DNA from: Moraxella catarrhalis
GTDB taxonomy: Bacteria; Pseudomonadota; Gammaproteobacteria; Pseudomonadales; Moraxellaceae
Direction: 5' to 3'
Length of the DNA stretch: 64,000 bases
Assembly: GCF_001656295.1 (NCBI RefSeq)
Contig: NZ_LXHE01000015.1
Span: forward strand, 1 to 64,000
In this document: piece after piece, positions 16,532 to 59,636 of the stretch
How the letters are laid out: each line of letters opens with the position of its first letter
Position numbering within the stretch: position 1 is the stretch's first letter
The notes under the pieces: generated by a model
Seen by the model: only the letters and a program-made list of their open reading frames with translations
Told to the model about the DNA's origin: nothing
Database searches by the model: none
Program-made: the position numbers and the translations under genes

Positions 16532-17472
16532 TAGCCTGCCTTGGTCAATGACTTTGGCAAGCTGAAAGTCACATTTTCTTCGATACCCGACAGCTCCGTG
16601 GGCGCATCAGCCCCCCACTGCTGTAAGGTGTCAAGCACTTCTTGAATGAGTATCTCAGGTGCTGATGCCCCTGCGGTCACGCCAACTGACCCAACCCCAT
16701 CAAACCACGATCGATCCATCTGACCGGCATTATCGATCAAATACGCTCGTCTGCCCATGCGTTCGGCAAGCTCGCGCAGACGGTTTGAGTTGGAGGAATT
16801 TGGACTGCCCACCACCAACACCACATCGCACTCATTAGAAAGCATCTTGACAGCATCTTGGCGGTTTTGGGTGGCGTAACAAATATCATCTTTTCTGGGG
16901 GCATTGATGGCAGGAAATCGGTCTTTGAGTGCATCAATGACATTGGCAGTATCATCCATTGATAGCGTTGTTTGTGTGACAAATGCCAATGACTTATCAC
17001 GCTCAAAGTCAAGCTTAGCCACATCTTCAACATCTTCAACCAAATGAATGCGTCCACCAAAACTGGTATCAAAACGCCCCATTGTCCCTTCTACCTCGGG
17101 GTGTCCTGCATGCCCAATAAGAATGGCGTCCATGCCCCCTTTGGCAAATTTACCCACCTCAATATGCACTTTGGTAACCAAAGGGCAAGTCGCATCAAAT
17201 ACCGTCAAATCACGGCGTTTTGCTTCATCTTCAACCGCCTTTGAAACCCCATGTGCCGAAAAAATGACAATCGCCCCATCAGGTACTTCATCAAGCTCTT
17301 CAACAAAAACCGCACCTCGGCGTGCCAAATCCTCAACCACAAATTTATTATGAACAACTTCATGACGGACATAAATGGGCGGATTAAAACGGCGTAACGC
17401 TTCATTGACAATCGCAATCGCTCTGTCCACACCTGCACAAAATCCACGAGGATTGGCTAATAATATTTTCAT
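16531..17472 (-). CDS. ispH: 4-hydroxy-3-methylbut-2-enyl diphosphate reductase IspH
   Basis: IspH catalyses the last step of the MEP isoprenoid pathway, giving IPP and DMAPP. The 313-residue protein has the three conserved cluster-binding cysteines: Cys12 (NPRGFCAGV), Cys96 ([12 protein letters not shown]) and Cys198 ([11 protein letters not shown]). It also has the substrate-binding [17 protein letters not shown] and [11 protein letters not shown] motifs. It is the first gene of the ispH-recJ pair, and its length is normal for the family. Confidence 0.97.
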
Positions 17473-55806: not shown

Positions 55807-56349
55807 CTAGCAGCTTAGCTTGATGACATCGCCATGTTCGATTCTGCTCAAACCATGCATATTAATTGTCGTTTGGTGGCTTAATGCAGCATCGCCATTA
55901 AGGGTGCAATAACGCACATTACCCATGTATCCACGGGGCTTTGCGTTATCGCCCATGAACTTAATATAATGCCGATGTAGTGCCACAGTCATTGATAACA
56001 TGCCATAGTTTAGCTCAAATGATTCTTTGAGCACCAAAGGATCACTGTCGTCTTTGCGATTGTTTTTATTTTTGTCAATGAACACCATCAAACCAGACTG
56101 CCCAAATCTATCACACACACCCAAGGTGTTAATGGGGCAGATGATGACATCTTTTTGGTGCAAGGCCGCCTCGATCTTGGCTCGTCGAAGTGCTTCTTGC
56201 ACATGTCGCCCCACCATTTGAGACTCATATCGGCGCATGAGCGAATCATAGGCTGGCACAGCGATCATACCGATGAGCGCCAATATGGCAAGAACAACCA
56301 TCACCTCAATCAGTGTAAAGCCTTGCTGAGTGTTAGGTCTTTGATTCAT
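55807..56349 (-). CDS. fimT: Type IV pilin-like minor pilin FimT/GspH family
   Basis: Started at the ATG at 56349 the protein is about 180 residues. It has a prepilin leader ending in Gly and the class III signal QQGFTLIEVMVVLAILALIG with Glu5, then a GspH-like C-terminal domain with conserved Cys pairs (IICPINTLGVCDRFG, RYCTLNG). FimT proteins are minor pilins needed for pilus assembly and, in some species, DNA binding during transformation. Its start lies inside the 3' end of the flavoprotein gene (17-bp overlap). It complements pilT in this window. Confidence 0.88.
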   Translation of the reverse strand: MNQRPNTQQGFTLIEVMVVLAILALIGMIAVPAYDSLMRRYESQMVGRHVQEALRRAKIEAALHQKDVIICPINTLGVCDRFGQSGLMVFIDKNKNNRKDDSDPLVLKESFELNYGMLSMTVALHRHYIKFMGDNAKPRGYMGNVRYCTLNGDAALSHQTTINMHGLSRIEHGDVIKLSC

Positions 56350-57751
56350 TGGTAGATGTAGCATTATCGCCAAGGTCAAACCAAATCTTACCAGGATTCA
56401 TGATACCACGAGGATCAATGGCTTGCTTAATCGCCTGCATGACACCGATGGCAGTACCGTGTTCTTTTTGCATATATTTACGCTTGCCTTGTCCGATACC
56501 ATGCTCACCTGTACAAGTGCCACCCATTTCAATTGCACGCACCGCCAAACGCTCAAGGATTTCTTCAGCCTTTTTTAGCTCTTCATCATTGTTTGTATCA
56601 ACAAGTAGTAGCACATGAAAATTACCATCACCCACATGACCGACAATTGGTGCAAGCATGTCTGACTTTTGGATATCGGCTTGGGTTTGTGTCACACATT
56701 CCGCCAGTCGAGAAATCGGCACACATGCATCGGTTGACAGTCCTCGTGCTGTAGGTCTAAGTGCACAGGCAGCATAATACGCATGATGGCGAGCACTCCA
56801 CAGTTTTTTGCGCACCGCTTCATCACTACCCCACTCAAAATCACTGCCGCCAAAGTCTTCAATGATTTGCTCAAATAAATTCGCCTGCTCTGCCACGCTC
56901 TGTTTAGTACCATGAAATTCTACAAATAAGGTGGCTTTTTCGGGCAATGATAAGCCTGAATACTGATTACATGCACGAATCTGAATCGGGTCAAGCAACT
57001 CAATACGAGCAATCGGCAAACACATCTGAATGGTAGCAATGGTCGCCTGACACGCCATATCAATGCTTGGAAAATGACAAGTACCACTGCCAATCACTTC
57101 AGGTTGCCCAAATAGCTTGACTGTCACCTCTGTGACAATACCAAGCGTCCCTTCAGAACCAACAATCAGACGCGTCAAATCATAACCAGCCGATGACTTT
57201 TTGGCACGTGTGCCGGTTTTGATGATTTCACCAGTTGGCAGCACCACTTCCAGCGATAAAACCACATCTTTCATCGTCCCATAGCGAACAGCATTTGTGC
57301 CTGATGCTCGGGTAGCAACCATACCACCGATGGTCGCATTCGCCCCTGGATCAAGCGGGAAAAATAATCCCGTCGCACGCAAATAGTGATTGAGCGATTC
57401 TCTGGTCACGCCTGCTTGCACGGTCGCCGTCAGATCCTCTTCATTAATCGCAACAACTTCATCCATCTGCGACATATCAATACAAAGTCCGCCATACGGT
57501 GCATTTAGCTGACCCTCCAGTGATGAGCCGATACCAAATGCGATGACAGGCATATGATGCTCATAACAAATCTTAACGGCATCTGCCACATCGTACTTAT
57601 GCTTGGCGGTCAAGACCGCATCAGCAGGCTGATTAAGCAGCCAAGTCGTCGTATGTGCGTGCTGCTCACGCGTAGTCATATTGGTTGAAAGCTGATCGCC
57701 AAATCGTGCTTTAAGCGCACTCATCGCTTCTGCAAATCTTGTCTGTGTCAT
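56333..57751 (-). CDS. FAD-linked D-2-hydroxyacid (D-lactate/glycolate) dehydrogenase
   Basis: The 472-residue flavoprotein of the GlcD/D-LDH (VAO) family has a PCMH FAD-binding domain with FGIGSSLEGQLNAPYGG, LDPGANATIGGMVATRASGTNAVRYG and LIVGSEGTLGIVTEVTVKL. The C-terminal FAD-oxidase domain shows VGHVGDGNFHVLLLVD and GTCTGEHGIGQGKRKYM. It probably oxidises D-lactate to pyruvate at the membrane with cytochrome or quinone as acceptor. No Fe-S partner is adjacent, which favours the single-subunit type. Confidence 0.88.
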   Translation of the reverse strand: MTQTRFAEAMSALKARFGDQLSTNMTTREQHAHTTTWLLNQPADAVLTAKHKYDVADAVKICYEHHMPVIAFGIGSSLEGQLNAPYGGLCIDMSQMDEVVAINEEDLTATVQAGVTRESLNHYLRATGLFFPLDPGANATIGGMVATRASGTNAVRYGTMKDVVLSLEVVLPTGEIIKTGTRAKKSSAGYDLTRLIVGSEGTLGIVTEVTVKLFGQPEVIGSGTCHFPSIDMACQATIATIQMCLPIARIELLDPIQIRACNQYSGLSLPEKATLFVEFHGTKQSVAEQANLFEQIIEDFGGSDFEWGSDEAVRKKLWSARHHAYYAACALRPTARGLSTDACVPISRLAECVTQTQADIQKSDMLAPIVGHVGDGNFHVLLLVDTNNDEELKKAEEILERLAVRAIEMGGTCTGEHGIGQGKRKYMQKEHGTAIGVMQAIKQAIDPRGIMNPGKIWFDLGDNATSTNESKT

Positions 57752-58586
57752 TAAATTTATCCCATATTACAAGCGCTTTGTTATCAAACGCTTTTACTGC
57801 CATCAAAATTTCAAAACGATTGTACCACATTTCCGATTTTGAGTGAGACTCACGCATTTGACATCGGCAACATTCAAACCACATAAGTTCCCTAAAATGA
57901 CTTTAACAATTATGACAAACTTGTGAAACTTATACATTTATTAAAATAATATCCTAAAAATTTTCTTAACAAATTTGACGATAAAAATTGTTTACCAAAG
58001 TCCCAAAAGTTTTTTTGACCTTGCCAAGCCTTGCTACTAATAGGCTCAAAAACTTTTCCACACAAGCTGTGGATAACTTTTAAAAACACTCAACATATCG
58101 CCCCTAAAAGCGTGTATTTATCACGCCTGCATAAGAATTGATTAAAATTTGAACAATAATAAATATATATATTTTTATAATAAAAATCAATAACTTATAA
58201 ATATAATAGCTTGAATAGCATTAAAATAACTCAAGGTTATATAGATAATTTTTATATTCATAGAGTCGGTTTGGTGTTCCACAATGATCTGACATATTTT
58301 GTGGATAAGATTGTGGATAAGTTTTTATCAGGTCAAATTTTGGCTCAAAAATCATCTTTTTTTATCATTGCTCTTTGATTGAATTTTGAGATTAAAAAGC
58401 GATTGGTTCAAGCACTGAGTTTTAAAAAATTCATTTAAAATGACACAAATTACTGACAAAATATTTCAGGATAACCCCCTATCAAAAAGGCAGTTATGCT
58501 ATAATTAACGGTAGATTTAGTGACATGATTGTCAAGTTTGTGAGCATAATCGAAGCAGGCAATCGTATTAATTTTAGGAAATTTCT
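57752..58586. other. Candidate oriC-like region with DnaA boxes and AT-rich stretch
   Basis: This is the largest gene-free gap in the window. Perfect DnaA boxes (TTATCCACA or complement) lie at 58068-58076, 58300-58308 and 58312-58320; TTTTCCACA lies at 58054-58062, inverted against the first. TGTTCCACA at 58275-58283 is a weaker match. Between the two clusters, 58141-58250 is almost pure A/T, a plausible unwinding element. Genes to the left are minus-strand and recA/recX to the right are plus-strand, so transcription leads away. It could equally be a DnaA-regulated or DnaA-titrating region; dnaA itself is not in the window. Confidence 0.55.
58498..58534 (+). promoter_or_regulatory. Candidate recA promoter with downstream inverted repeat
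   Basis: TGCTATAAT (58498-58506 region) is an extended -10 with no good -35. TGACATGATTGTCA (58521-58534) is an inverted repeat just past the start point and could be an operator. No canonical E. coli LexA box is seen. Confidence 0.45.
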
Positions 58587-59636
58587 ATGGACGAAAATAA
58601 AGAAAAAGCACTCAAAGCCGCCTTGGCTCAGATCGAAAAACAGTTTGGTAAAAACACCATCATGCATTTGGGTGATGAGACCGCTAAGCTTGATGTGGAT
58701 GTGGTCTCTACTGGCTCGCTTGGGCTTGACATTGCGCTAGGTATCGGTGGCTTGCCAAAAGGTCGAATTATTGAGATTTTTGGACCTGAAAGTTCGGGTA
58801 AAACAACACTGACCTTACAGACCATCGCCGAATGCCAAAAACAAGGTGGCACTTGCGCCTTTATTGACGCTGAGCATGCCCTTGACCCAATCTATGCCAA
58901 AAAGCTTGGCGTAAATATTGATGATTTGCTTGTCTCGCAGCCTGATAATGGTGAGCAGGCGCTTGAGATTGCTGACATGCTCGTGCGCTCAGGTGCGATT
59001 GATCTGATTGTGGTGGACTCTGTGGCTGCATTAACGCCAAAAGCTGAAATTGAAGGCGAGATGGGTGACAGTCACATGGGCTTGCAGGCTCGCTTGATGA
59101 GCCAAGCGCTGCGCAAAATTACCGGCAACGCCAAACGCTCAAATTGTATGGTGATTTTCATCAACCAAATCCGTATGAAAATTGGCGTCATGTTCGGTAG
59201 TCCAGAGACGACGACAGGTGGTAACGCCTTGAAATTCTACGCTTCTGTACGTCTTGACATTCGACGCATTGGCTCTGTTAAGGATGGTGATGAAATTGTC
59301 GGTTCAGAAACGCGCGTCAAAGTCATCAAAAATAAGATGGCACCGCCATTTCGCCAAACCGAATTTCAAATTATGTACGGTGAGGGCATTAACCGCCTAG
59401 GCGAGGTGATCGATTTGGGTGTTGATATTGGTGCTGTTGGTAAGTCAGGTGCTTGGTACAGTTATGGTGATGGTAAAATTGGTCAAGGTAAAGCCAATAC
59501 GGTCAAATATCTGCAAGAAAATCCTGCCATTGCCAGCGAAATCGAAGCCAAAGTTCGTGAGATTAAATTAGCCACAGTCGCACCCATCATAGAATCAGAT
59601 GAGCCTGAAGAGCATATAGAAGACGATAATTTCTAA
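58587..59636 (+). CDS. recA: Recombinase A
   Basis: RecA is the strand-exchange protein and co-protease. The 349-residue protein has Walker [10 protein letters not shown] (66-74), Walker [11 protein letters not shown], the L1 loop [22 protein letters not shown], and L2 with the [17 protein letters not shown] block. It has an acidic C-terminal tail ([13 protein letters not shown]). AGGAAATTTCT precedes the ATG. recX follows 9 bp after the stop. Confidence 0.98.

Follow-up and report, generated by a model that had tools for sequence, protein, structure and literature searches.

A split DARS-type set of DnaA boxes with a central IHF-type site upstream of recA in Moraxella catarrhalis, and its counterparts in relatives

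Introduction

DARS sites have been worked out in Escherichia coli, and datA acts in the direction opposite to DARS. In the cores of DARS1 (bioD-uvrB gap) and DARS2 (rppH-mutH gap), as we read them from MG1655, a box on the plus strand is followed after 14 bp by a box on the minus strand and after a further 12 bp by another box on the minus strand. The accessible parts of two papers describe box I as opposite to boxes II and III with equal spacing at both sites, and DnaA molecules as making head-to-head contact with release of ADP (PMC5742627, PMC8682772). DARS1 is presented in excerpts of the literature as a core plus short flank that works in vitro without added factors (PMC5742627, PMC4585315). 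For DARS2, the sections available to us place IHF sites beside the core (PMC8682772, PMC5742627) and add a need for Fis (PMC8682772, PMC5742627, PMC4245941).

Kasho 2014 (PMC4245941) states that both Fis and the DARS2 core are conserved in those gammaproteobacteria that are related to E. coli, and passages of PMC4245941 and PMC5742627 locate the core in gamma- (or beta-) proteobacteria near E. coli. A paper on Vibrio cholerae (PMC3937223) contains the term "DnaA reactivating sequence" once. A search of the open-access literature on DARS and DnaA boxes in Acinetobacter, Pseudomonas, Moraxella, gammaproteobacteria and Vibrio returned no title or abstract start that describes the element reported here.

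The window analysed in this study is a stretch of 64,000 nucleotides of Moraxella catarrhalis DNA. It covers the greater part of the 67,695-base contig C17 in a draft genome (G000) of 26 contigs and 2.23 Mb. A first-pass annotation had proposed that the gap upstream of recA is a replication origin or, alternatively, a DnaA-titration or recA-control region. We found that this gap holds a split DARS-type box set with a central IHF-type site, and that the positions of these parts are kept across related species.

Results

DnaA boxes in the gap upstream of recA

The gap runs exactly from 57752 to 58586 with divergent ORFs on both sides, as the first-pass annotation had described it (835 bp, outward-facing flanks). 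The three perfect DnaA boxes and the inverted box that it had reported were also found (Table 1). An A/T-only stretch of more than 100 bp, claimed for the same gap, is absent; A/T-only runs do not exceed 33 bp, and A+T reaches 88% in the richest 100 bp. Of the two neighbours named, recA was correct, but "D-LDH" is a loose name for a gene whose best NCBIfam match is the glycolate oxidase GlcD, below cut-off.

The gap contains the motif TTWTNCACA four times, whereas 5000 dinucleotide shuffles averaged 0.22 and none of them reached four. In the rest of the window, 835-bp stretches taken every 50 bp contain at most one. The count for the whole window is ordinary (9 found, 10.8 expected), and the telling feature is therefore the clustering of the boxes. 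The element is split, with boxes I and II intact at one end and boxes II' and III' intact at the other, 232 bp apart. Over the whole genome, TTATCCACA occurs 73 times and the reversed control 3 times, with clusters on contigs C8, C17, C20, C21 and C23.

Table 1. Positions of the features in the window and in the second copy on contig C8
Feature	Position	Strand	Remarks
DnaA box I TTTTCCACA	58054..58062	+	Exact consensus match; inverted relative to the other boxes; spacing of 14 bp to box II shared with E. coli DARS1 and DARS2
DnaA box II TTATCCACA	58068..58076	-	Exact; TTATCCACA at this anchor in 11/11 recA-linked loci compared
Core box III position, degenerate	58080..58088	-	4/8 consensus letters; intact box III here in 7/11 loci
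A/T-only run, 33 bp	58155..58187		Longest in window; extends into IHF-type site
IHF-type site AATCAATAACTTA	58185..58197	+	Consensus match, perfect WATCAANNNNTTR; 117 bp after box II start, midway between the box clusters
Weak box TGTTCCACA (7/8)	58275..58283	+	25 bp before box II'; read from sequence
Box I' position of second cluster, degenerate GATCTGACA	58286..58294	+	8/8 in G021 and G013, 7/8 in G003
DnaA box II' TTATCCACA	58300..58308	-	232 bp from box II; corresponds to the fourth box of the wider layout
DnaA box III' TTATCCACA	58312..58320	-	12 bp from II'
recA (neighbour, outside element)	58587..59636	+	NCBIfam TIGR02012, 564.7 bits, above cut-off
FAD-linked oxidase, GlcD / D-lactate dehydrogenase type (neighbour)	56333..57751	-	NCBIfam glcD 351.7 bits, below cut-off 567.9
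C8 box I	C8:26687	+	One mismatch
C8 box II	C8:26701	-	DnaA box
C8 IHF-type site	C8:26818	+	II+117
C8 boxes II' and III'	C8:26930, 26942	-	DnaA boxes

A second split copy with the same layout lies at C8:26491-26950 (L133 6492-6951). Three more DnaA boxes are located just upstream of it. It is flanked by a FAD-binding gene and an integrase-family gene, the latter adjoining a diaminopimelate epimerase gene. The DARS layout was also sought in other box clusters of the genome (C21, C23) and was not found there.

Comparison with DARS1, DARS2 and datA

The recA-linked cores of the relatives have the orientation and the 14/12 spacing of DARS1. DARS1 itself shows a 7/8 box at II+189 and a two-mismatch IHF-like match at II+107, which are the offsets of the wider layout described below, although both are weak and may be due to chance. 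Unlike DARS1, the window copy has a second cluster as well as a perfect IHF-type site, and its core is not contiguous. A contiguous core, with box starts 14 and 12 bp apart, is present in 11 relatives but not in the window copy, and we therefore file the latter as an element that would work like DARS rather than as a proven member. DARS2 has the same core geometry as the sites of the relatives, with one-mismatch IHF matches at +79 and +95. As in DARS2, an IHF-type site, predicted by consensus, lies beside the boxes of the window. The window differs from DARS2 by its same-strand second cluster 232 bp away, the other boxes of DARS2 being arranged differently, and DARS2 lacks the +107/+189 layout.

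The E. coli datA region (slice from L271 3101) has boxes at 145 (+), 307 (+) and 319 (-) and a perfect IHF-type site at 210 (-). Reversed by hand, it reads as a box (+), 12 bp, a box (-), IHF at +93 and a box (-) at +162, which is near the layout of the window. In both, a single IHF-type site lies between same-strand DnaA boxes (II and II' in the window), but the spacing of datA is not matched: its same-strand boxes are 162 bp apart (232 bp in the window) and its inverted pair 12 bp (14 bp in the window). No I-II-III core was seen in the E. coli datA region. When the genes flanking DARS1, DARS2 and datA in E. coli were compared with those of the relatives' and class loci, nnr alone matched, in three loci (L195, L201 and L210), which is too little to claim orthology.

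Conservation of the layout in the genus

We compared the recA gap in 17 of 21 genus relatives, giving 18 loci together with the window; G007, G008 and G020 gave no DNA match, and G014 was viewed via the short locus L203 alone. G007, a complete relative, also yielded no dnaA candidate and no match to the core pattern in the genus and family searches, and it was left out. Box clusters are present in 11 of the 18 loci (10 relatives and the window) and missing in 7. Since G014 also has the core (L203), the site occurs in 11 of the 18 relatives with the recA gap in view, and all 11 of these recA-linked sites fit the DARS core pattern with 0 or 1 mismatch. Anchors II and II', both on the minus strand when oriented with recA, are 230-233 bp apart in 10/11 loci, the exception being G009, which has no recognisable II'. 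The complete three-box set (+/14/-/12/-) is found at the first anchor in G001, G004, G006, G009, G010, G015 and G016, and at the second anchor in G003 (one mismatch), G013 and G021.

A perfect IHF-type consensus begins 116/117 bp after the start of box II in 9/11 loci, and G003 and G016 have an IHF-type site at 117 with one mismatch, so that all 11 loci agree within one mismatch. The number of loci with a perfect IHF-type site expected by shuffling the spacers was 0.003, a guide figure, as the shuffles were mononucleotide and the species are related. The spacers themselves are 36-96% identical across loci (median 50%). In three relatives, G013 (L119), G015 (L122) and G021 (L116), a second element lies 2.6-2.8 kb from the first, downstream of recX in two species and about 2.6 kb further upstream in the third. 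A recA tree groups G000, G003, G013 and G021 weakly (57/86), with G015 drawn among them.

Among 80 recA loci from GTDB contigs, from which near relatives may be excluded, the best recA identity was 86%, to Moraxella caprae. One contig, BMPS01000025.1 (L006), whose record bears the title Streptomyces cinereus JCM 3040, codes for a RecA with 83% identity to that of the window and is probably a case of contamination or mislabelling.

Distribution of the DARS core

We searched genomes with the core pattern TTWTNCACAN5TGTGNAWAAN3TGTGNAWAA, taking the reversed pattern as control. At up to 3 mismatches, the core was found in 18/22 genomes of the genus (control 0/22), and the genome of the window itself has no intact three-box core at this threshold. 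In the family, 172/199 genomes have the core at up to 2 mismatches, with 0 for the reversed control in the table. In the class, it is present in 232/274 genomes at up to 3 mismatches, and the control matched in 4 genomes (manual count). The oriC of G011 also gives a core match with 2 mismatches. In family loci of other genera (L221-L250), DARS-type cores lie at recurrent places, such as the gaps between PP-loop (TtcA-like) and lytic transglycosylase genes and between UspA-family and O-methyltransferase genes.

Layout of a wider element in the class

For the class, 20 stretches (6.9-11 kb) from 19 genomes were picked among low-mismatch matches and contained 21 cores. Of these cores, 15/21 have a fourth box on the same strand at +186 to +201, and 5/21 a perfect IHF-type consensus at +106/107. 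Of 30 family loci from other genera, 7 have a perfect IHF-type site at +106/107, and many are without an IHF site there or a fourth box; several family loci at the UspA / O-methyltransferase site consist of the core, with no perfect IHF site at that place or fourth box. An exact search for boxes I-II plus a fourth box 174-204 bp on was positive in 99/252 class genomes, and the reversed control in 0. By inspection, most of the extended matches listed are 209-216 bases long, corresponding to 186-193 bp from II to IV, which is narrower than the allowed range. In a draw from the phylum, the exact extended pattern was present in 6/299 genomes, namely 5/87 class members and 1/212 others (manual count). 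These counts indicate that the exact form occurs across many families, yet is rare among the families that fill that draw.

We built a nucleotide profile from 15 elements, none of them from the family of the window; 15/21 class cores were kept. Since a full fourth box at +180 to +205 was required, which excluded six cores, the profile favours the fourth-box layout. It finds the window at 58057-58197 (E=1e-4) and the E. coli DARS1 core (E=4e-5), as well as family and genus sites. The best of 40 background stretches scored E=0.2, and reversed sequences gave nothing up to E=1. The C8 copy is matched weakly (E=0.01, at the extra boxes, and 0.27), and the matches to DARS2 (E=0.09) and datA (E=0.8) are not significant. 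The profile also matches the oriC of G011 (L214) via its box pair (E=2e-6). Because this origin is found, profile matches to a box pair alone are not specific, and because it gives both a core match and a profile match, pattern matches alone do not prove a DARS.

Could the core matches across the class be oriC? This was rejected for 20/20 sampled stretches, in none of which homologues of dnaA, dnaN, gyrB, rnpA, yidC, mnmE, recA or ftsZ were found (0/20; the search had no positive control, and in some stretches the core is 1-2 kb from the end). We located dnaA in 14 class genomes, of which 11 are single-contig; core and dnaA on a shared contig are about 80 kb or more apart, except for one G322 copy that is unplaceable, the genome size being rounded.

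Location of the replication origin

Three observations bear on the proposal that the gap is an origin. The gene dnaA is not near the gap but on contig C20, where five DnaA boxes lie between dnaA and rnpA (both genes by NCBIfam), and dnaN, recF and gyrB adjoin dnaA (by inspection). This ordinary dnaA origin is likewise a cluster of DnaA boxes; it differs from the recA gap in adjoining dnaA and in having no DARS core, only a 5/7/7 set. Among the ORFs listed around the gap, none was dnaA, rnpA/rpmH or mnmE/mnmG (by inspection). A further three-box DnaA cluster occurs at C20:16808-16978 (L115), just before an ORF at 16997 that by inspection resembles riboflavin synthase.

In addition, GC skew has no lasting switch at the site in the window. 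We sampled the skew of two single-contig relatives, G004 and G013, with 20 stretches of 12 kb and the recA stretch each, at a resolution of about 110 kb. The change from negative to positive skew falls between 2.02 Mb and 0 in G004, which has dnaA at position 382, and between 1.06 and 1.16 Mb in G013, which has dnaA at 1.152 Mb. One stretch per genome runs against the trend, at 1.75 Mb in G004 and at 2.21 Mb in G013, where it may be near the terminus. Finally, recA is located at 1.597 of 2.123 Mb (G004) and 1.587 of 2.336 Mb (G013). Assuming that the terminus lies opposite, recA would be about 0.50 (G004) and 0.37 (G013) of an arm length away from dnaA.

Discussion

As judged from sequence, the gap is probably, though far from certainly, a DARS-like, IHF-folded element that controls the nucleotide state of DnaA, and not an origin. 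In such an element, IHF would bend the DNA at the centre into a hairpin, and the geometry suggests that the two box clusters would then come face to face. This apposition would let the split core work. By analogy with E. coli, DnaA-ADP would bind the inverted pair I-II in head-to-head orientation and lose its ADP; the freed DnaA would reload with ATP and could fire oriC elsewhere. A place in mid-arm would set the dosage of the element and its timing after initiation, as proposed for the E. coli DARS sites. Several results count against this reading: the genome of the window has no intact core, the layout resembles datA and differs from DARS2, 7 of the 18 recA gaps have no boxes, several family loci have the core alone, the profile matches the C8 copy weakly but also an oriC, and the exact extended pattern is rare in the phylum draw. 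The genome encodes three proteins of the HU/IHF family: IHF-alpha passes the NF001401 cut-off (domain stretches scanned), and the IHF-beta-like and HU-like proteins are, as fragments, below the NCBIfam cut-offs. An Hda-like fragment is encoded as well, also below cut-off. Besides dnaA and the Hda-like gene, two 252-aa open frames have matches to the Bac_DnaA domain (C19:47765-47974 and C8:58587-58790).

The main rival is a datA-like role, in which IHF would loop the same-strand boxes and DnaA-ATP would assemble and have its ATP hydrolysed, or DnaA would be titrated, so that initiation is restrained. The closeness of the E. coli datA layout to that of the window, with II and II' on the same strand and the IHF-type site central, speaks for it, and the two copies 2.6-2.8 kb apart in three relatives would fit a dosage role. 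Nevertheless, the DARS core consists of an inverted pair at 14 bp and a third box after a further 12 bp, the arrangement given in the accessible part of PMC5742627, while the datA pair is at 12 bp; we regard a datA-like role as unlikely, if still a serious competitor. Less probable is that the gap is a decaying remnant, an ancestral DARS-like site that has no complete core now and binds DnaA weakly or not at all. The losses at the two ends complement each other, box III at the first and box I' at the second, and would suit decay, as would the lack of an intact core in this genome. However, four boxes are still full TTWTNCACA matches, the IHF-type site is perfect, and the split recurs in the C8 copy, whose IHF-type site lies at exactly +117; one would not expect decay to arrive at this arrangement twice.

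DnaA regulates some E. coli promoters, and boxes 267-533 bp upstream of recA, between divergent genes, could let it control recA or the oxidase gene. Still, the core lies next to other genes elsewhere: a GroEL-like ORF (GroEL by inspection) paired with either a Methyltransf_4 or a YjeF/Nnr-type gene, an integrase gene, or PP-loop and transglycosylase genes. Second copies are downstream of recX or further upstream, a search of the gap for a CTGTN8ACAG box found none, and the core is present in 0/80 of the GTDB recA loci (chiefly from Gammaproteobacteria, near relatives excluded). Because the same element adjoins other genes in other species and is missing from these 80 loci, such a regulatory region is quite improbable. 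Thus, of the alternative offered by the first-pass annotation, control through DnaA binding points in the right direction and recA control does not hold up well. Its leading proposal, a replication origin, main or secondary, can draw on the DnaA boxes, the A+T-rich spacer and the IHF-type site, which are also parts of oriC. Against it stand the dnaA origin region on C20, the skew switch within the dnaA-holding interval of G004 and G013 with recA in mid-arm, the skew in the window and the missing A/T-only stretch, and we consider an origin at the gap highly improbable.

Returning to the DARS-like reading, we offer a broader and decidedly speculative version of it. Many gammaproteobacterial families may share one ancient element in which the DARS core is joined by an IHF site at the centre and, at a set distance, by a fourth box, and which would act as an IHF-folded hairpin switch for the nucleotide state of DnaA. 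E. coli DARS1 might then be a reduced relic without the IHF half, and the core in the window, split over two ends, might be whole only on folding by IHF, as an IHF-gated DARS.

Similar switches seem, from the pattern of boxes, to exist in many related bacteria. If the element does the job of a DARS, the nucleotide state of DnaA would be controlled by a chromosomal site across the class, with a common IHF-centred design. The logic of this design could then be tested on natural variants, in which the core lies at one end, lies at the other end, is split or is duplicated.
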